DNA of 44,869 nucleotides, from contig JAQUMH010000014.1 of NCBI GenBank assembly GCA_028718185.1, forward strand, positions 1 through 44,869. The letters are read 5' to 3'. Source of the DNA: Elusimicrobiota bacterium. Its GTDB lineage: Bacteria; Elusimicrobiota; UBA8919. A program made the translations under genes and the position numbers. Of this stretch, positions 36,110 to 44,869 are shown one piece after another. The notes below the pieces were generated by a model. The model was not told where the DNA came from and ran no database searches. It worked only from the letters and a program-made list of their open reading frames with translations. Numbering within the stretch: position 1 is the stretch's first letter; each line of letters opens with the position of its first letter.

Positions 36110-37216
36110 ATGGCAGAAGTAATCTTAAAGAAGGTGTGCAAGTCTTTTTTCAAAACGGAGGTAGTAAAAAGTGTTGATCTGGAAATTAAAGACAAAGAGT
36201 TTTGTGTTCTGGTAGGACCCTCCGGGTGCGGAAAAACTACAACATTAAGAATGATAGCAGGGTTAGAGGAGATAACAAGCGGCGAAATTTATATAGGTTC
36301 CAGGTTGATTAACGATGTAGTACCTAAGGATAGGGATATAGCTATGGTATTCCAGAATTATGCATTATATCCGCATATGACCGTCCGGGGAAACATGGAA
36401 TTCGGATTGAAACTTAGAGGGTACCCTAAAGAAGAAATTGAAAAAAGAATAGAATATGCATCAACGATGTTAGGAATAAAAGATTTCTTGAATAGGAAAC
36501 CCAAAGAACTTTCTGGCGGTCAAAGACAGCGGGTTGCAGTAGGAAGAGCTATAGTCCGCAAACCGCAGGTTTTTTTATTTGATGAACCGTTGTCAAATCT
36601 TGACGCAAAACTGAGAGTACAAATGCGTGCAGAATTAAAGAAACTTCATCAACGGCTTCAAACCACTATAATTTATGTTACCCATGATCAGATAGAAGCT
36701 ATGACATTGGGAGACAAAGTTGTAGTTATGAGAGACGGGATTATTCACCAGGTAGCAGATCCAAATACAATTTATGATAGTCCGGCAGATAAATTTGTAG
36801 CAGGTTTCATAGGTTCGCCGCCAACAAATTTTATGGAATGTACAGTAGTAAAAAAAGATAATGTAGCACATTTAGACGAAGGTACATTTTTAGTAAAGAC
36901 AAACGATAAAATGTCAGGTATTTTGTTGGAAAAATATTTAAACAAAAAGGTTACACTCGGCGTGAGACCGGAAGATATCTATGATAAATTTTACTATTCA
37001 GGTACTAAAACTGAAGGCAAAACACTAATGGCAACAGTTGAAGTAGTAGAACCCATCGGTGCAGAAAAATATCTTTACCTTAAAACAGGTAAAAACTCTT
37101 TTATATCAATAGTAGACACACACAATAAAGTTGAAGTAAATCAGGATATTGAAGTCGTCTTTAACATGGATAAAATACATGTTTTTGACATAGAAACCGA
37201 AAAAACAATTGCATAA
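36110..37216 (+). CDS. Carbohydrate ABC transporter ATPase (UgpC/MsmK/MalK type)
   Basis: The 368-residue ATP-binding subunit powers CUT1 sugar importers from the cytoplasmic face. Visible: Walker A GPSGCGKTT (about 37-45), Q-loop MVFQNYALYPHMTV (about 82-95), signature LSGGQRQRVAVGRA (about 135-148), Walker B VFLFDEPLSNLD (about 155-166), H-loop THDQ, and a C-terminal OB/TOBE regulatory region (about 240-365; LGVRPEDI, VVEPIGAEKYLYLKTG). AGGAGG precedes the ATG. The permease partners are encoded at 39019 and 41548. Such ATPases often serve several permeases, so it may not be exclusive to these. Confidence 0.96.
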   Translation: MAEVILKKVCKSFFKTEVVKSVDLEIKDKEFCVLVGPSGCGKTTTLRMIAGLEEITSGEIYIGSRLINDVVPKDRDIAMVFQNYALYPHMTVRGNMEFGLKLRGYPKEEIEKRIEYASTMLGIKDFLNRKPKELSGGQRQRVAVGRAIVRKPQVFLFDEPLSNLDAKLRVQMRAELKKLHQRLQTTIIYVTHDQIEAMTLGDKVVVMRDGIIHQVADPNTIYDSPADKFVAGFIGSPPTNFMECTVVKKDNVAHLDEGTFLVKTNDKMSGILLEKYLNKKVTLGVRPEDIYDKFYYSGTKTEGKTLMATVEVVEPIGAEKYLYLKTGKNSFISIVDTHNKVEVNQDIEVVFNMDKIHVFDIETEKTIA

Positions 37217-37293: not shown

Positions 37294-38067
37294 ATGTATG
37301 GCAAAAACAGTTTAATTGAAATTGTAAAAGTTAAATCTAGTATTGATAATTCCATAGAAGAAGTTTTTTTTATACCAGCAAAAAGAAAAAATGCACCGCT
37401 TCTTGTAAAACTTCATACTTGGAGTTTTAGCAAGGAAGCTGAGAAAAAAGAGATCAAAAATATTTTTAAGTCTACCGGATGGAACATACTTGCTCCGGAA
37501 TTCAGAGGTCCCAATTTAGCAAATAATCCAAGAGCAAAAGAAGCTTGTGGTTCTAAACTTGCAAAACAAGATATAGCAGATGCGGTTTACTTTATACAAA
37601 AGAAGTATCATTTAACATCTAAACAGGTATTCCTTCTTGGAGGAAGTGGTGGCGGTCATATGGCATTGTTAATGGCTGCGTCCTATCCTTCTCTTTGGAG
37701 TGTTGTATGTGCTTGGTGTCCTATAACAGATTTAAACAAATGGCGATTTGAAAATTTACATTATAAAACACATATAGAAGCTTGTTGTGATAGCAAATAT
37801 CAATATGCAGCTCGATCTCCAATAAATTATATTGATGAAATATCTAAAGCTCGAGTATATATTTCTCATGGTAAATGTGACAATAGTGTTCCATTTACAC
37901 ATAGCCTTGAACTTTATAACAAAATTATTAAAAAACATCCTAAAGCAGATATATTTCTTAACATTTTTAGAGGCGGTCACGAAATTAAAGTAAAGGAAGC
38001 TTTAATAGTTTTTAAATCTTTTCTTACTGCGAATAGTAAGAAACTACATTCAATACTATCAAAATGA
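37294..38067 (+). CDS. Alpha/beta-hydrolase (prolyl-oligopeptidase/esterase-like)
   Basis: The 257-residue protein has the serine hydrolase layout. The nucleophile elbow is LGGSGGGHMAL with Ser118, the acid is probably Asp196 in HGKCDNSVPFTHS, and the base is His229 in GGHE; the oxyanion strand is PLLVKLHTW. No signal peptide is visible, so it is probably cytoplasmic. Placement inside a sugar ABC importer cluster suggests it removes acyl or other ester groups from imported oligosaccharides, as acetyl-xylan-esterase-like enzymes do; the substrate is inferred. No ribosome site is obvious before the ATG. Confidence 0.82.
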   Translation: MYGKNSLIEIVKVKSSIDNSIEEVFFIPAKRKNAPLLVKLHTWSFSKEAEKKEIKNIFKSTGWNILAPEFRGPNLANNPRAKEACGSKLAKQDIADAVYFIQKKYHLTSKQVFLLGGSGGGHMALLMAASYPSLWSVVCAWCPITDLNKWRFENLHYKTHIEACCDSKYQYAARSPINYIDEISKARVYISHGKCDNSVPFTHSLELYNKIIKKHPKADIFLNIFRGGHEIKVKEALIVFKSFLTANSKKLHSILSK

Positions 38068-38115: not shown

Positions 38116-39012
38116 ATGAAATTAGGTTTTTTAACTGCTTGTCTGCAGTTGAAGTTGGAAGATATTGTTAGTTGGGCAAAACAGGAAAATTTTGAAACGC
38201 TGGAAGTAGCTTGTTGGCCAAAAGTACATGGCCGTGATTTTGCTTCATCTCACATAGATGTATTAACTCTTGACAATAAAAAAACAGATGAAATAAAAAA
38301 ACTATTTAATAAGAATAATATCACAATATCTTCACTGGCTTATTATGACAACATGCTGACTCCTAAACCTGACGAAAGAGAAACCAAAATTAAGCACTTG
38401 AAAAAGGTAATTGATGCAGGAAAACTATTAAACTGCGATTTGGTAGGAACTTTTGTCGGGCGGGATCCCGGTAAGACTATCAAAGATAACTTAAAGGAAT
38501 ATAAGAAAGTTTTTACAGACTTAGTTGAATATGCTGAGAAGAAAAACATAAGATTAATGATTGAAAATTGCCCAATGGTAGGTTGGCAATTTGAAGGTTT
38601 GCCCGGAACAGTATCGTTTTCACCTGAACTTTGGGAAGAGATGTTTAAAATGATTCCAAGTAAAAATTTCGGTTTAAATTTTGACCCGTCACATCTTTAC
38701 TGGTTACATGTTGACTATTTACAGGCAATAAAAAAATATAGTAAATATATTTTTCATGCTCATGCTAAAGACACAATAATAAAAAAAGATTTGTTAAGTC
38801 AAAAAAGCATTTATGGTGATGGATGGTGGCAGGCACGAATGCCGGGACTTGGTGAAATCGATTGGAGCAAGTTTATCTCTACTTTAAAAGAAGCAGGTTA
38901 TGATGGTGTATTAAGCATAGAACATGAAGATCCGGTATGGTCTGGTAGTGAAGAGAAAATCAAAAAGGGGTTAGTACTTGCAGCTAAACATCTTAAACCT
39001 CTTTTAGTATAA
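38116..39012 (+). CDS. Sugar phosphate isomerase/epimerase (xylose-isomerase-like TIM barrel)
   Basis: The 298-residue AP-endonuclease-2-fold protein has typical metal-site motifs: LMIENCPM (Glu, about 153), LNFDPSHL (Asp and His, about 195-200), FHAHAKDT (His, about 215-222), and LSIEHEDP (Glu, about 275). GEIDWSKFISTLKEAGYDG is the standard segment before the last strand. Members isomerise or epimerise free sugars, keto-sugars or inositols in the cytoplasm. GAGAGG precedes the ATG. It lies six bases before the SBP-permease fusion gene, so it probably acts on the imported sugar; the exact substrate is unknown. Confidence 0.9.
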   Translation: MKLGFLTACLQLKLEDIVSWAKQENFETLEVACWPKVHGRDFASSHIDVLTLDNKKTDEIKKLFNKNNITISSLAYYDNMLTPKPDERETKIKHLKKVIDAGKLLNCDLVGTFVGRDPGKTIKDNLKEYKKVFTDLVEYAEKKNIRLMIENCPMVGWQFEGLPGTVSFSPELWEEMFKMIPSKNFGLNFDPSHLYWLHVDYLQAIKKYSKYIFHAHAKDTIIKKDLLSQKSIYGDGWWQARMPGLGEIDWSKFISTLKEAGYDGVLSIEHEDPVWSGSEEKIKKGLVLAAKHLKPLLV

Positions 39013-39018
39013 CTGCAA

Positions 39019-41460
39019 ATGAAAAACAAAAAGGTTGATTTTATCTTAATAAAAAAGTTCTGTATTCTATTGTCGCTTACATGGTTATTTAATGTTTTCT
39101 GTCAGACAGTCTCCTCTGGTCAAGAAACCCACAAAAAAATAACAATCTCCATAGAAAAAGGAGCCGCTCTCCCAAGACCTGACGATTCAAGACCACCGAC
39201 AATGTGTAACAGAAATGTTCTCAAGGCGTTCAAAGAAAAATATCCCTGGATAGAAATTGTTGAATCGGGTGGTATAGCTTCCAGAAATTTACCAATAGGT
39301 TCAGGAATATTGATGTCAATAGCAGGTGGAATCGCACCTGATATATTTTATGTTAATTTTGCAAGGTCAGATAATTATATCCACCAGGATTTTCTATATC
39401 CGCTTGATGAATTCGTGGAAAAATTACCAAAAAAAGAACTTAAAGAGAGGGTTTTACCGCAAGCACTTCCCGTATTATACCGGGAAGGAACTGACGGTAA
39501 AAAACACTGGTGGGCGTTCCCGCATAATTATTCAATTATGGGATTTGCATATCGTAAAGATTTATTTTATGAAGCCGGGCTTGACCCTGAACACCCTCCA
39601 GAGACATGGGATGAATACTTGGAATACGCCCGTAAAATTACTGACCCAGATAAAGGCATTTATGGAACTGAGTTTGTAAACGAAGGTATAGCTTCCTGGT
39701 ATTTTTACTTCCTGCTTTTATCAGCCGGTGGAAAAGCGGTAGTACAAAATGAGAAAGGCGAGTGGCGGGCAGTTTTTAATACTCCGGAAGCGGTAGACGC
39801 AGTTTATTTCTATACCCGTATTATACAAGAACCTTTTGTTAAAAATGGTAAAACCGTTTATGGTGCAGCGTTTAACGATAAGGATATGAATACGAAATGG
39901 GGTGCCGGTAAAATAGGTATGCGCATATTTTATTTTAACCCGGACACGATAGCTGAAGTAGACCCACAATTTATCGGGATATGCCCGGTTCCAAAAGGAC
40001 CTACAGGATTAAGAGGTTCGGAACTTAATGCCGGTTCACTGGCAATATTTTCAGGAGTAAAAGACCCTGAAGTCCGTGATGCATGCTGGAAATTCATATA
40101 TTTTTGGGGTAGTGCTGAAGCGGAGAAAATCCGCACTAAAGTATATGTTGAAAATGGCTTCGGCAATTTTGTTAATCCTGTACTACTAAAGAAATATGGA
40201 TATACAGAATATTTAAAATACACTCCTAAAGGCTGGGAAAAAGATTACAAAGAAACCCTGAACAATGGTGTTCCTGAACCATATTGCAGAAACTGGCAGT
40301 ATGGTTATATGTCCAAACCTTTAGATTTAGCACTGATAGAAAAACTTGGCACCAAACCACCTGAAATTGCAAAGAAACGTATAAAGGAACTGTTAGATGC
40401 CGGAGTTAAAGAAGCTAATGAAAAGATGTTGGGGATAATTCCTCCTAAGGAAATGAAATTTAGAAGAGGAGTAGCATTATCTCTAGCTGCCATTATATTG
40501 ATAACCTTCGTTTTTGCGTTTAGATATATTATAAAAGCATTTACACCAGAAGGAGTCAAATCAAGTTGGGGATTCAAAAAATACTGGGTTGCATATTTGA
40601 TACTTATTCCTGCTATATTAAGCATGGCAGTATGGCAGTACGTTCCAACGCTTCGCGGCGCTCTTATGGCATTTATGGATTACAGGATAATCGGTGAAAG
40701 CAAGTTTATAGGATTAGATAATTTCGCAAATGTTCTATTTGATAAAGTATTCTGGCAGGCATTGGGACATAGTTTATATTATGCAGCTTTAAGTCTTGGC
40801 TTAGGTTTTTTCTCGCCGATATTTCTTGCGATAATGTTACATGAAGTACCGAAAGGCAAAGTATTTTTCAGGGTAATATTTTATTTGCCGCATGTAATAA
40901 GCAGTATAATAGTAATATTTCTATGGAAAGGTTTCTATGACCCGTCAGCCGGTGGTTTATTAAATAAGCTTTTAGATATTGTTTCAGGTGGTAAAATACT
41001 TCCTCAAGCATGGCTCAGAAACCCTGATTTGGCTATGATATGTATAATAATACCTATTATATGGGCGTCTGTGGGACCCGGTTGTCTAATTTATCTGGCT
41101 GCGTTAAAAACAATACCTGAGGATTTATACGAGGCAGCGGAAATAGATGGTTCTAATTTATGGCATAAGTTATGGAATGTAACTATTCCTACAATAAAAC
41201 CGTTAATCACAATAAGTTTTGTAGGTGCATTTATAGGAGCGTTCAGGGCAGCCGATTTTATATTAGTAATGACAGGCGGTGGACCGGCAAAGGTAACAAC
41301 GGTCCTGGGATTAGAAATATTTTATAATGCATTTATGGATTTAAAATTCGGGATAGCAACCGCAATGAGCTGGATATTAGGTTTTATATTGATTGGATTT
41401 ACTGTATATCAATTAAAACGCTTAACCAGAATGCAGTTCAGAACATCAGATAGTAAATGA
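39019..41460 (+). CDS. Fusion of extracellular sugar-binding protein and MalF-type ABC permease
   Basis: The 813-residue protein has an N-terminal signal or anchor (about 10-35). A family-1 solute-binding domain follows (about 40-465; VLKAFKEKYPWIEIVESGG, APDIFYVNFARSDNYI, WWAFPHNYSIMGFAYRKDLF, EHPPETWDEYLEYARKIT, AGSLAIFSG). Then comes a membrane helix (about 481-503) and a complete MalF-type permease (about 518-813; YWVAYLILIPAILSM) with the EAA cytoplasmic loop EAAEIDG at 705-711 that docks the ATPase, and the usual FRAADFILVMTGGGP. Topology is consistent: the binding domain outside, the extra helix returning the chain to the cytoplasm, then the permease. In classical CUT1 systems these are two genes. 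Partner of the permease at 41548 and ATPase at 36110. Confidence 0.93.
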   Translation: MKNKKVDFILIKKFCILLSLTWLFNVFCQTVSSGQETHKKITISIEKGAALPRPDDSRPPTMCNRNVLKAFKEKYPWIEIVESGGIASRNLPIGSGILMSIAGGIAPDIFYVNFARSDNYIHQDFLYPLDEFVEKLPKKELKERVLPQALPVLYREGTDGKKHWWAFPHNYSIMGFAYRKDLFYEAGLDPEHPPETWDEYLEYARKITDPDKGIYGTEFVNEGIASWYFYFLLLSAGGKAVVQNEKGEWRAVFNTPEAVDAVYFYTRIIQEPFVKNGKTVYGAAFNDKDMNTKWGAGKIGMRIFYFNPDTIAEVDPQFIGICPVPKGPTGLRGSELNAGSLAIFSGVKDPEVRDACWKFIYFWGSAEAEKIRTKVYVENGFGNFVNPVLLKKYGYTEYLKYTPKGWEKDYKETLNNGVPEPYCRNWQYGYMSKPLDLALIEKLGTKPPEIAKKRIKELLDAGVKEANEKMLGIIPPKEMKFRRGVALSLAAIILITFVFAFRYIIKAFTPEGVKSSWGFKKYWVAYLILIPAILSMAVWQYVPTLRGALMAFMDYRIIGESKFIGLDNFANVLFDKVFWQALGHSLYYAALSLGLGFFSPIFLAIMLHEVPKGKVFFRVIFYLPHVISSIIVIFLWKGFYDPSAGGLLNKLLDIVSGGKILPQAWLRNPDLAMICIIIPIIWASVGPGCLIYLAALKTIPEDLYEAAEIDGSNLWHKLWNVTIPTIKPLITISFVGAFIGAFRAADFILVMTGGGPAKVTTVLGLEIFYNAFMDLKFGIATAMSWILGFILIGFTVYQLKRLTRMQFRTSDSK

Positions 41461-41547: not shown

Positions 41548-43425
41548 ATGGGGTTACTTCGAACGCAGGGGAAAAAAGACTTGGGAACAATTATAGTTAT
41601 TGTAATAATGTATTTTCTGCTTATAACCGGTGGAATAACAATGATTTATCCTTTTCTTATCATGATATCGGGGTCTTTTAAAAGTGGAGTGGATATATAT
41701 GACTACGATGCAATTCCCAGGTATTTTTATTCGAATGAAGCATTATATCAAAAATATATAGAAACAAAATATAATGAATCATTAACAGAATATAATGAAA
41801 ATGCCAGGGATGATAAATTCAATTTTGCTAAACTCACCCTGCCTGATAAAATACATGAAGGAAGAATAAAAGACTGGCAAGAATTTACTGATAAAGTAAA
41901 AATGCCGTCAACATATGGTATCCTCGGAAATTTCATTTCGTATAACAATAAAATGTTACCTGAGATGGGAAGAAAATACCGGAAATGGTTACAGAAAAAA
42001 TGGAATAATTCCTTAAAAGAATATAACCGTGTTCATGACGCATCCAGCACGTCCTGGCTGATGGTAAATCCTCCGCCTATTAATTCAGTAGCAGGACGTT
42101 CATTCACATTAGCAGCATCAAAAACCTTAAGTTCAGCGTTCGAATTTAAGACAGAACAACCAAGTCGTTACTATTATTATTTATCACTTGATGGCAGATA
42201 CGTCCGTACTCTTTTATACATGAAATATGGTAAAAATATAGAAACTTATAATAAAGCACATGGCACTAATTATAAGAGTTATAATGAATTTATTTTGACC
42301 CGAACAGTGCCGGAAAACAAAAAGCAAGCAGAGGATTGGACAGAGTTTGTGCAAAAACAATTGAACTTACGGTACATTAGTGTAAGTCCCAAAGCAAAAG
42401 CAGACTTTTTGAATTTTTTAAGTAAAAAATATGAAGGTTCAATATCCTTTTTGAATAAAATTTATGGAACAAAATATAAAAATTTTGAAGAAGTACCTTA
42501 CCTTGAAGATGCTTTAAAAATAGGCGGCACCGGGTTAGTAGACTGGAATGTTTTTGTTATGCAGATATCACCAAGATATATAACATTAACAGGTCCGGAA
42601 TTTCTATGGCAAGATTATCTAAAAGAAAAATACAAAAATATAAAAACATTAAATCAGGCACATGAAGCTGAGTATGCATCATTTGAGAAAATCCCAATGC
42701 CGACTGAAGATGTAAATTATCAGAATATGTTAAAACATTCCAAACAAATACGCTGGGAATTTATAACACGTAATTATATTCATGTGTTTCAATATCTGCT
42801 TTTACAGGGCAGGGGAATATGGAATACTTTTGTATATTGCCTTCTGTCAATTTTAATAACGATTACAGTTAATCCTATGGCAGCTTATGCAATGAGCAGA
42901 TTTAATCTGCCTTCAACTTACAAAATTATCTTATTCTTATTAGCAACAATGGCATTCCCACCCATGGTAACAGCAATTCCAAACTTTCTACTACTTAAAC
43001 AGTTAGGGATGCTAAACACATTTTGGGCATTGATTCTACCCGGAATGGTAAACGGATATTCAATATTTTTACTTAAAGGTTTTTTTGATAGTTTACCAAG
43101 AGAATTATATGAATCAGCAATGTTAGACGGTGCAAACGAATGGGTGATGTTCTGGAATATAACAATGTATTTATCAAAACCAATATTAGCAGTTATAGCT
43201 TTAGGCGCATTTAACGGAGCGTACGGAGCCTTTATGTTTGCGTTTATAGTATGCCAGGATGAGAAGATGTGGACGATAATGGTATGGTTGTATCAGCTAC
43301 AAGATCTCACGCATCAATCGGTAACCTTCGCTGCTCTTATTATTGCTGCTATACCAACATTTATAATATTTGTTTTCGCTCAAAATCTTATTATGCGCGG
43401 CATTGTTGTACCAACCGAAAAATAA
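41548..43425 (+). CDS. MalG-type ABC permease with large repetitive periplasmic insertion
   Basis: The 625-residue protein is more than twice the usual MalG length (about 280). Residues 10-45 are the first membrane helix (IVIVIMYFLLITGG...MIYPFLIMISGSFK). The remaining helices begin near 415 (NTFVYCLLSILITITVNPMAAYAMSRF split across 421-447) and include the EAA loop ESAMLDG at 522-528 and the usual NLIMRGIVVPTEK end. The roughly 360 residues between them would lie in the periplasm and consist of about five imperfect copies, starting near 63, 140, 215, 285 and 349, of a module like KYG-x-I-x-x-LN-x-A-x-GT-x-Y-x-SF-x-E-x-P. CAGGAGG precedes the ATG. It probably pairs with the SBP-permease fusion; the insertion may contact the binding domain, the glycan or the cell wall. 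Confidence 0.92.
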   Translation: MGLLRTQGKKDLGTIIVIVIMYFLLITGGITMIYPFLIMISGSFKSGVDIYDYDAIPRYFYSNEALYQKYIETKYNESLTEYNENARDDKFNFAKLTLPDKIHEGRIKDWQEFTDKVKMPSTYGILGNFISYNNKMLPEMGRKYRKWLQKKWNNSLKEYNRVHDASSTSWLMVNPPPINSVAGRSFTLAASKTLSSAFEFKTEQPSRYYYYLSLDGRYVRTLLYMKYGKNIETYNKAHGTNYKSYNEFILTRTVPENKKQAEDWTEFVQKQLNLRYISVSPKAKADFLNFLSKKYEGSISFLNKIYGTKYKNFEEVPYLEDALKIGGTGLVDWNVFVMQISPRYITLTGPEFLWQDYLKEKYKNIKTLNQAHEAEYASFEKIPMPTEDVNYQNMLKHSKQIRWEFITRNYIHVFQYLLLQGRGIWNTFVYCLLSILITITVNPMAAYAMSRFNLPSTYKIILFLLATMAFPPMVTAIPNFLLLKQLGMLNTFWALILPGMVNGYSIFLLKGFFDSLPRELYESAMLDGANEWVMFWNITMYLSKPILAVIALGAFNGAYGAFMFAFIVCQDEKMWTIMVWLYQLQDLTHQSVTFAALIIAAIPTFIIFVFAQNLIMRGIVVPTEK

Positions 43426-43447
43426 ATTTTAATATAAAATTTATTTT
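43419..43447 (+). terminator. AT-only inverted repeat at the end of the permease gene
   Basis: AAAATAAATTTTA-ATA-TAAAATTTATTTT, a perfect 13-bp stem with a three-base loop that includes the stop codon. It is AT-only and ends in TTTT, so it may act as a weak terminator or 3'-end stabiliser. Confidence 0.45.
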
Positions 43448-43571
43448 GAGTTATTTAAAATTGCTAAAAACCAGTATTGAAGATTCATTGATTTGTTAAA
43501 AACAACGAATTGGCAATAAAATTGCTACATAAACAAAGAGAAGTTGAATATGTAAAGAGGTTAAAAATATA

Positions 43572-44869
43572 ATGAAAAACATGAGGTTTATGATAAAAAG
43601 TTTAAGAACGCATAAGAAGTGTTTTGTGTTAGCCTTAGCAATTTTATTGGGTTTTGCTAATTTTAGTTTATTAACAGCTATTGTAACACCGCAACCTAAC
43701 AGCGATTCAACATTCCAGAATGCTACTTTGATATACAAATCCAGAGAATATACCTGTTCTCCTGAACATGCTGATGGTGATTTCCTTGCTGCAGATCTTT
43801 TAACGAGCGACTGGCCTGTTGCGTGGGCAGATATCTCACAATACGTTACAGCAGCTCATAAGGCACAAGGTTTTATAGATATTCTGCTTACAGTAGACAT
43901 GACGCCTAAAGTGAATGGCGTTGATCCAAAAGTATATGTCACCGGAGATATAGATAATTATACTGACCAAGATTGGCTGGCTTCTGCAGATGGTGATTTA
44001 TATGATATGATAGATACAGATCTTGATGGTAATACCAACATTTGGGACAGTTATATACTTGAATGGAAGGTAGCTGATCCTATATATGGTACCGTTACTT
44101 ACAATTACATGCCGAACGATTATTATATATCGTTAAGATTCGCAGTACCAAAGGAAGTAAACAATTACTATAAGTTATTCTTAGGCCGAACCAACATAAG
44201 ACCATATGAGTCATATATCTCTTTTTCTGATTTTTACCAGGTGGACTTATACACTCCTGCGCTACCTGCGGGACCATATGCTTGTCCTGATATTAAGGTC
44301 TCCGAAAGATATAGAAGCCCGTATGATCCTGTTTATCAAGTATACCATACGCCTATGAAAAGTCGTTCTGTAATTGTAAATAAGTCTGTTACTTTTGATG
44401 GTTCAAGGTCACTGGACACTTCGGGTGCTACGATAACCAAGTATGAATGGGATTTTGATGGCGATGGAATATATGATGCTGAAGGAATTTCACCAACATA
44501 CACTTATACTGCGGTTGGTCTCTATACAGTTATCCTTAAAGTAACTAATAGTAATAACCAGATATCAATATCTAAGGGCAGTATTAGAAAATCAGAATCT
44601 TCTGACCCATTACCATTAGTCGTAAATGTAGTTGCCGCAGCACCTGAAAACAAACTTTACCAAAACGGTCCAAATCCGTTTATACCCGCAAAAGGTGATG
44701 TTAAAACGACCATTAATTATGATTTAACAACTGACAATCTTCCTGTTTCATTGAAAGTTTATACAGTTTCCGGTGAATTAATAAAAACGTTGGTAGATGA
44801 ACCTAAGCCTGCCGGGACATGGTCAACTGAATGGGATGGGACGAATGAGAGCGGCGAGAAGGTAGCGAG
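43572..44869 (+). CDS. Secreted PKD-domain protein with FlgD-like tail (3' partial)
   Basis: The frame opens at ATG 43572, after AGAGGT, and runs without a stop for 432 codons to the right edge. A long signal peptide (about 1-36; FVLAILLGFANF-like hydrophobic run, ending LLTA) is followed by an unrecognised beta-rich region with many Asp, Asn and Tyr (about 37-255; DTDLDGNTNIWD, YYISLRFAVP). A PKD domain (about 262-340; VTFDGSRSLDTSG, YEWDFDGDG, YTYTAVGLYTV) follows. An FlgD-like tail begins near 360 (YQNGPNPFIPAKGDV, LKVYTVSGELIKTLVDE, WDGTNESGEKV) and is cut by the window end. It is the fourth protein here with this tail type. Its position downstream of the permeases suggests a surface role in the same glycan uptake, but it may be a separate unit. 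Confidence 0.85.
   Translation, partial: MKNMRFMIKSLRTHKKCFVLALAILLGFANFSLLTAIVTPQPNSDSTFQNATLIYKSREYTCSPEHADGDFLAADLLTSDWPVAWADISQYVTAAHKAQGFIDILLTVDMTPKVNGVDPKVYVTGDIDNYTDQDWLASADGDLYDMIDTDLDGNTNIWDSYILEWKVADPIYGTVTYNYMPNDYYISLRFAVPKEVNNYYKLFLGRTNIRPYESYISFSDFYQVDLYTPALPAGPYACPDIKVSERYRSPYDPVYQVYHTPMKSRSVIVNKSVTFDGSRSLDTSGATITKYEWDFDGDGIYDAEGISPTYTYTAVGLYTVILKVTNSNNQISISKGSIRKSESSDPLPLVVNVVAAAPENKLYQNGPNPFIPAKGDVKTTINYDLTTDNLPVSLKVYTVSGELIKTLVDEPKPAGTWSTEWDGTNESGEKVA

Follow-up and report, generated by a model that had tools for sequence, protein, structure and literature searches.

A MalG-type permease with a long, probably periplasmic insert

Why would a membrane subunit of a sugar importer carry a large insert between its first two transmembrane helices? 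The question is raised by a gene on a contig of 44,869 nucleotides (C14), which was analyzed whole and is called the window here. The contig belongs to a genome of 3.03 Mb, which falls together with named Elusimicrobia records. The gene run and the parts of the permease are as follows.

36110..37216, + strand: MalK/UgpC-type ATPase, same gene run (ABC_tran, OB_MalK, and TOBE_2; UgpC subfamily above cut-off)
37294..38067, + strand: alpha/beta-hydrolase, esterase-like, same gene run (Pfam)
38116..39012, + strand: sugar isomerase/epimerase-like TIM barrel, same gene run (IolO/IolE-like, below cut-offs)
39019..41460, + strand: SBP-MalF fusion, 813 residues (Pfam, hydropathy)
41548..43425, + strand: long MalG-type permease, 625 residues, with a five-module insert between TM1 and TM2 (PF00528, paralogue, and MalG 2r6g_G)
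41590..41646, + strand: TM helix 1, residues 15-33 by hydropathy (AF2 helix 12-42)
41716..41934, + strand: module B1, residues 57-129 (module HMM, profile comparison)
41953..42177, + strand: module B2, residues 136-210, conserved R184 in a long loop (module HMM, profile comparison)
42175..42384, + strand: module B3, residues 210-279 (module HMM, profile comparison)
42382..42588, + strand: module B4, residues 279-347 (module HMM, profile comparison)
42595..42777, + strand: module B5, residues 350-410, running into the membrane core, with PF02449 at 354-404 (module HMM, Pfam)
42808..43422, + strand: MalG membrane core, residues 421-625 (Pfam, AF2, Foldseek)

At 43426-44869 of the window (+ strand), an ORF runs off the contig end; by eye, it looks secreted, with a PKD-like stretch and an FlgD-type-like end.

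The long MalG has a PF00528 (BPD_transp_1) match at residues 462-618, and the nearest solved membrane domain to its predicted core is that of MalG 2r6g_G (Foldseek E 5.5e-8, TMt 0.61). A paralogue on contig C1 of the same genome is 70% identical. Hydropathy places TM1 at residues 15-33 and the next transmembrane helix at 428-446; about 360 extra residues had been noticed after helix 1 by the sequence-only reading from which this work started, and the insert indeed measures ~365. The ordinary MalGs of the phylum are mostly 270-345 residues in total and have a short loop at this site. From the permease topology, the insert should be periplasmic. The only other Pfam match is to Glyco_hydro_42 (PF02449), at residues 354-404; it scores exactly at the curated cut-off and spans only positions 154-206 of the 376 in the family model. 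Because Pfam and NCBIfam report only ordinary permease matches and a near-cut-off GH42 match in such genes, the architecture is easily overlooked.

Two BPD_transp_1 subunits, an SBP_bac_1 domain, and a MalK/UgpC-type ATPase are encoded together, which is the gene content of a CUT1 importer of the MalFGK2 kind. A separate binding protein, which is typical of CUT1 but not strictly required, is replaced here by a fusion of SBP to MalF. Unless experiments show a different mode of delivery, the system counts as a structural variant within a known transporter class, not as a new class.

Five tandem modules and their predicted fold

The insert of the window MalG consists of five tandem modules of ~70 residues each. 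Internal repeats had been placed by the sequence-only reading near residues 63, 140, 215, 285, and 349, close to where the module HMM starts its copies (57, 136, 210, 279, and 350), and the module consensus carries every motif on that reading's list. A profile-profile comparison had been set beforehand as the test of the repeat signal. We cut the insert of 69 aligned relatives into blocks 58-132, 133-208, 209-278, 279-348, and 349-412 (window numbering). All ten module pairs matched with hhalign probabilities of 96.8-99.6% and scores of 47-107, while the controls gave no such match: column-shuffled profiles scored at most 17.3, and blocks of the permease core reached probabilities of at most 1.6%.

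Five modules are found in 48 of the 69 proteins and four in 13, the rest having two to seven; for the most distant members, these numbers probably fall short. Several members are irregular. The long MalGs at L093:6001-8298 and L139:3600-6014 have seven module matches each, and the alignment suggests an internal duplication in the former. A 969-residue MalG from Hydrogenedentota (L116:4264-7173) carries further insertions, apparently including one inside the membrane core, and the long MalG at L094:6001-7882 is split into two overlapping ORFs, which suggests a frameshift or an assembly error.

AF2 modeled the whole long MalG with a mean pLDDT of 87.5 and the insert alone with a pLDDT of 94.0 and a pTM of 0.90; per ten residues, the insert ranges from 79 to 98. 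Two helices, then a loop and a third helix, make up the repeat unit, which usually closes with a short strand; the insert as a whole is predicted to be an ordered, rigid helical solenoid. An insert that was disordered and not conserved had been named in advance as evidence against the repeat claim; the model is ordered, and the insert is kept across phyla. A Foldseek search with the solenoid returned no match at E<=0.001 in the PDB or among viral models, and its weak matches were mostly GH42/GH14/GH50-type glycosidases at TM-scores of about 0.13-0.16.

Kinship of the modules to GH42-type glycosidases

Sequence comparison points to the same enzymes. Searched against the PDB, the module profile finds GH42 beta-galactosidases first (1kwg residues 151-214, E 1.6e-6), followed by GH50, GH14, and GH167, and 44 of 50 full-length relatives match PF02449 (best E 4.7e-20). 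The sequence-only reading had been reminded of short motifs in GH42-type enzymes. The likeness is real homology; what is shared is not a scatter of short motifs but one defined segment of GH42/GH14/GH50-type glycosidases, located after the acid/base residue. Each module is homologous to this single segment and differs from the enzymes in being tandem and in having no catalytic barrel, acid/base, nucleophile, or sugar-contacting tip. That the insert is itself a GH42 enzyme was considered and rejected, as it has a single type of segment and neither a complete TIM barrel nor a catalytic Glu pair.

The insert sequence gave only single-module glycosidase matches in the PDB, and none of the glycosidases in the genomes examined showed a tandem array. 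Both multi-module ORFs inspected are long MalGs beside SBP-MalF, with no tandem modules elsewhere among the ORFs inspected; of the two single-match ORFs inspected, one was a GH42 and the other a glycosidase-like protein, and the remaining single-match ORFs were left out. The segment was probably transferred from enzyme to permease.

Does the solenoid still bind sugar? The modules could form a carbohydrate-binding antenna that catches oligosaccharides near the entrance and hands them to the binding domain. Their glycosidase homology speaks for this, as do the aromatic residues that make up 14-16% of the loop and the glycan-related genes beside several long-MalG loci. Pfam samples of these neighbors include sulfatases, heparinase II/III, PL8, GH106, GH123, and GH38, with a GH20 near the paralogue in the same genome, and they suggest oligosaccharides from complex or sulfated glycans as substrates; about half of the sampled neighbors are not glycan-related. 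In the GH42 enzyme BiBga42A, Trp-200 and Phe-221 act on the substrate site of the neighboring subunit (PMC10688820), and by the residue numbering of its structure 8ibs both lie inside the segment homologous to the modules. Against an antenna, 321 of the 324 modules lack the sugar-contacting tip Trp together with its loop, and the Phe-221 column is empty in 293. What is conserved in the modules is mainly Asn, Leu, Phe, and Pro, with a few charged residues, and is likely structural in type. Judged from these alignments, the module appears to have kept a fold element of the glycosidase and lost its sugar-contacting tip, and we regard an antenna as unlikely.

Spread, ancestry, and selection

A pattern-based scan across the GTDB species genomes found 77 loci, one of which (L120) is an ordinary permease; this is a lower bound, and the records are nearly all metagenome bins. 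The phyla are Elusimicrobiota, Lentisphaerota, Kiritimatiellota, Verrucomicrobiota, Planctomycetota, Armatimonadota, Firestonebacteria, Hydrogenedentota, Sumerlaeota, Latescibacterota, Coatesbacteria, and Spirochaetota. The insert is present in about 69 relatives from about 12 phyla. In a membrane-core tree, built by a quick method with short MalGs sampled narrowly from the phylum only, the long MalGs form one clade against 27 short ones (support 100, one change), which points to one origin of the insert and its retention in about 12 phyla.

The modules have also kept their places. In 487 of 660 comparisons, a module finds its best match in another phylum at its own position, and mean scores are 1.29 for the same position in other species versus 0.54 for the other modules of the same protein. 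Since same-position modules resemble each other more across species than the modules of one protein do, the array had already become differentiated in an ancestor. A fixed shape making distinct contacts would lead one to expect such positional identity. Of ten pairs compared, eight gave an NG86 dN/dS of 0.02-0.24 for the insert, and the remaining two gave 0.32 and 0.46, in every case higher than in the membrane core; these figures are rough, as dS is near saturation in several pairs. On these values, the insert is under purifying selection.

These results bear on whether the insert has any specific role at all. A module number that varies from two to seven is what one might see if a glycosidase segment had expanded neutrally or selfishly, but the signs of purifying selection on the insert, the positional identity of its modules across phyla, and its long retention after one origin make this explanation highly improbable.

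Pairing with the SBP-MalF fusion

The partner subunit in the window has a signal peptide at ~6-24, SBP_bac_1 at 96-369, a transmembrane helix at 487-505, and BPD_transp_1 at 614-803. By hydropathy, its MalF part lacks a large extracytoplasmic loop of P2 size, and no modules were found in the SBP-MalF fusions. Of 68 long-MalG loci, 55 have such a fusion directly beside the long MalG and 4 have one at a distance of 1.5-4.3 kb; a further 6 have none in the available flank, and in 3 the flank is too short. Thirteen of the 15 genomes with no fusion adjoining long MalG in the flank examined have a convincing match elsewhere, some of these truncated by contig ends, and the genomes of L081 and L090 gave no convincing SBP-MalF match elsewhere. 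In the phylum, 199 genomes were compared: a long MalG occurs in three of them, and close relatives of the window fusion are encoded in exactly these three.

The pairing is one-sided. The co-occurrence that the sequence-only reading had proposed to survey holds in the direction from long MalG to fusion and not in reverse: divergent fusions in other Elusimicrobiota (L142-L145), about 30% identical to the window fusion and likewise joining SBP_bac_1 and BPD_transp_1 in one chain, pair with ordinary, module-less MalGs of 278-291 residues. The rule that any SBP-MalF implies a long MalG is therefore false, and tethering alone needs no solenoid. Partial distance correlation showed that all transporter parts covary, with loop and SBP not singled out.

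Other features of the fusions were seen along the way. Some of L142-L145 lie beside genes with GH35-like N-termini, by eye. The window's own genome has four fusions of this type and two long MalGs; on its contig C4, two fusions (L121:15559-18000 and L121:7202-9691), 70-71% identical to that of the window, have no adjacent MalG and adjoin ~900-residue proteins with fn3, CBM6, and Big_7 domains. In 33 of 53 relatives (for example, L048:3219-5996), the membrane domain of MalF contains an additional insertion at 655-662 (window numbering), with two predicted hydrophobic helices in 28 of the 33; the window fusion lacks it.

The solenoid could instead bind a third partner, such as an outer-membrane component of the porin or TonB type, an enzyme on the surface, or peptidoglycan, thereby coupling import to sugar release. 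The phyla with long MalG are mostly diderm, protein binding is common among helical solenoids, and CBM6/fn3 proteins stand beside other SBP-MalF genes of the same genome. Gene lengths and Pfam samples revealed no constant third gene beside the MalG/SBP-MalF pair, however, and the fusion is the only constant partner found, so that we consider a third partner distinctly unlikely.

A proposed scaffold for a tethered binding domain

Comparison with known systems suggests what the solenoid may do for its constant partner. The E. coli MalFGK2-MalE system shares the MalG membrane core, the MalK partner, and an SBP_bac_1 binding protein; in the window, the fusion joins SBP to a MalF part without a P2-like loop, and a 365-residue, five-module solenoid stands where E. 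coli MalG has a short loop. In E. coli, MalE touches MalG through its N-lobe and is also contacted by MalF-P2 (PMC3150292); the titles of references in PMC3328499 also support contacts between MalE and MalFG. SBP fusions occur in other importers, and GlnPQ and OpuA belong to other transporter subfamilies with other binding-protein types. As in the window system, a covalent link holds their binding domain to a membrane subunit (PMC8025302, PMC11065425), and in the text consulted no solenoid is reported on a partner subunit. Searches of open papers turned up no description of the present architecture, which agrees with the sequence-only reading's view of it as a candidate for an undescribed one.

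Because the MalF part of the fusion has no large loop, whereas MalF-P2 and MalG contact MalE in E. coli, we propose that the system is a CUT1 oligosaccharide importer whose solenoid serves the tethered binding domain as a rigid scaffold or cap in the periplasm, a reading to which we give even chances. The long MalG would be the second membrane subunit of a MalFGK2-like oligosaccharide importer. A glycosidase segment (helix, short helix, loop, helix, and short strand), set in tandem after TM1, usually five times, would fold as a rigid solenoid standing over the translocation entrance. With the binding protein tethered to the partner subunit SBP-MalF, the solenoid would cradle this domain over the translocation path and supply the contacts that MalF-P2 and the periplasmic face of MalG give to MalE in E. 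coli. Gene content, modules, homology, pairing, and selection are observed here, the fold is predicted, and the docking role and the oligosaccharide substrates are what we infer. The scaffold is supported by the tandem repeat, the confident fold, the SBP-MalF pairing, the fixed module positions, the dN/dS values, the P2-less MalF, and the glycan-degrading neighbors; against it count the fusions with ordinary MalGs, the lack of singled-out loop-SBP coevolution, the six fusion-less loci, and the roughly half of the sampled neighbors that are not glycan-related. Somewhat short of even, we place the stronger form of this proposal: that these are a distinct class of sugar importers, whose MalG solenoid and MalF-fixed binding domain form a permanent periplasmic capture chamber, in which loading and delivery take place in one assembly, not by SBP diffusion.

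The system would be an example of an enzyme's segment being recycled as a repeat protein within a transporter. The long MalGs define a subfamily of sugar importers kept in about a dozen little-cultured phyla, in which nature offers a way to ask why docking loops are needed by binding proteins that are already tethered.
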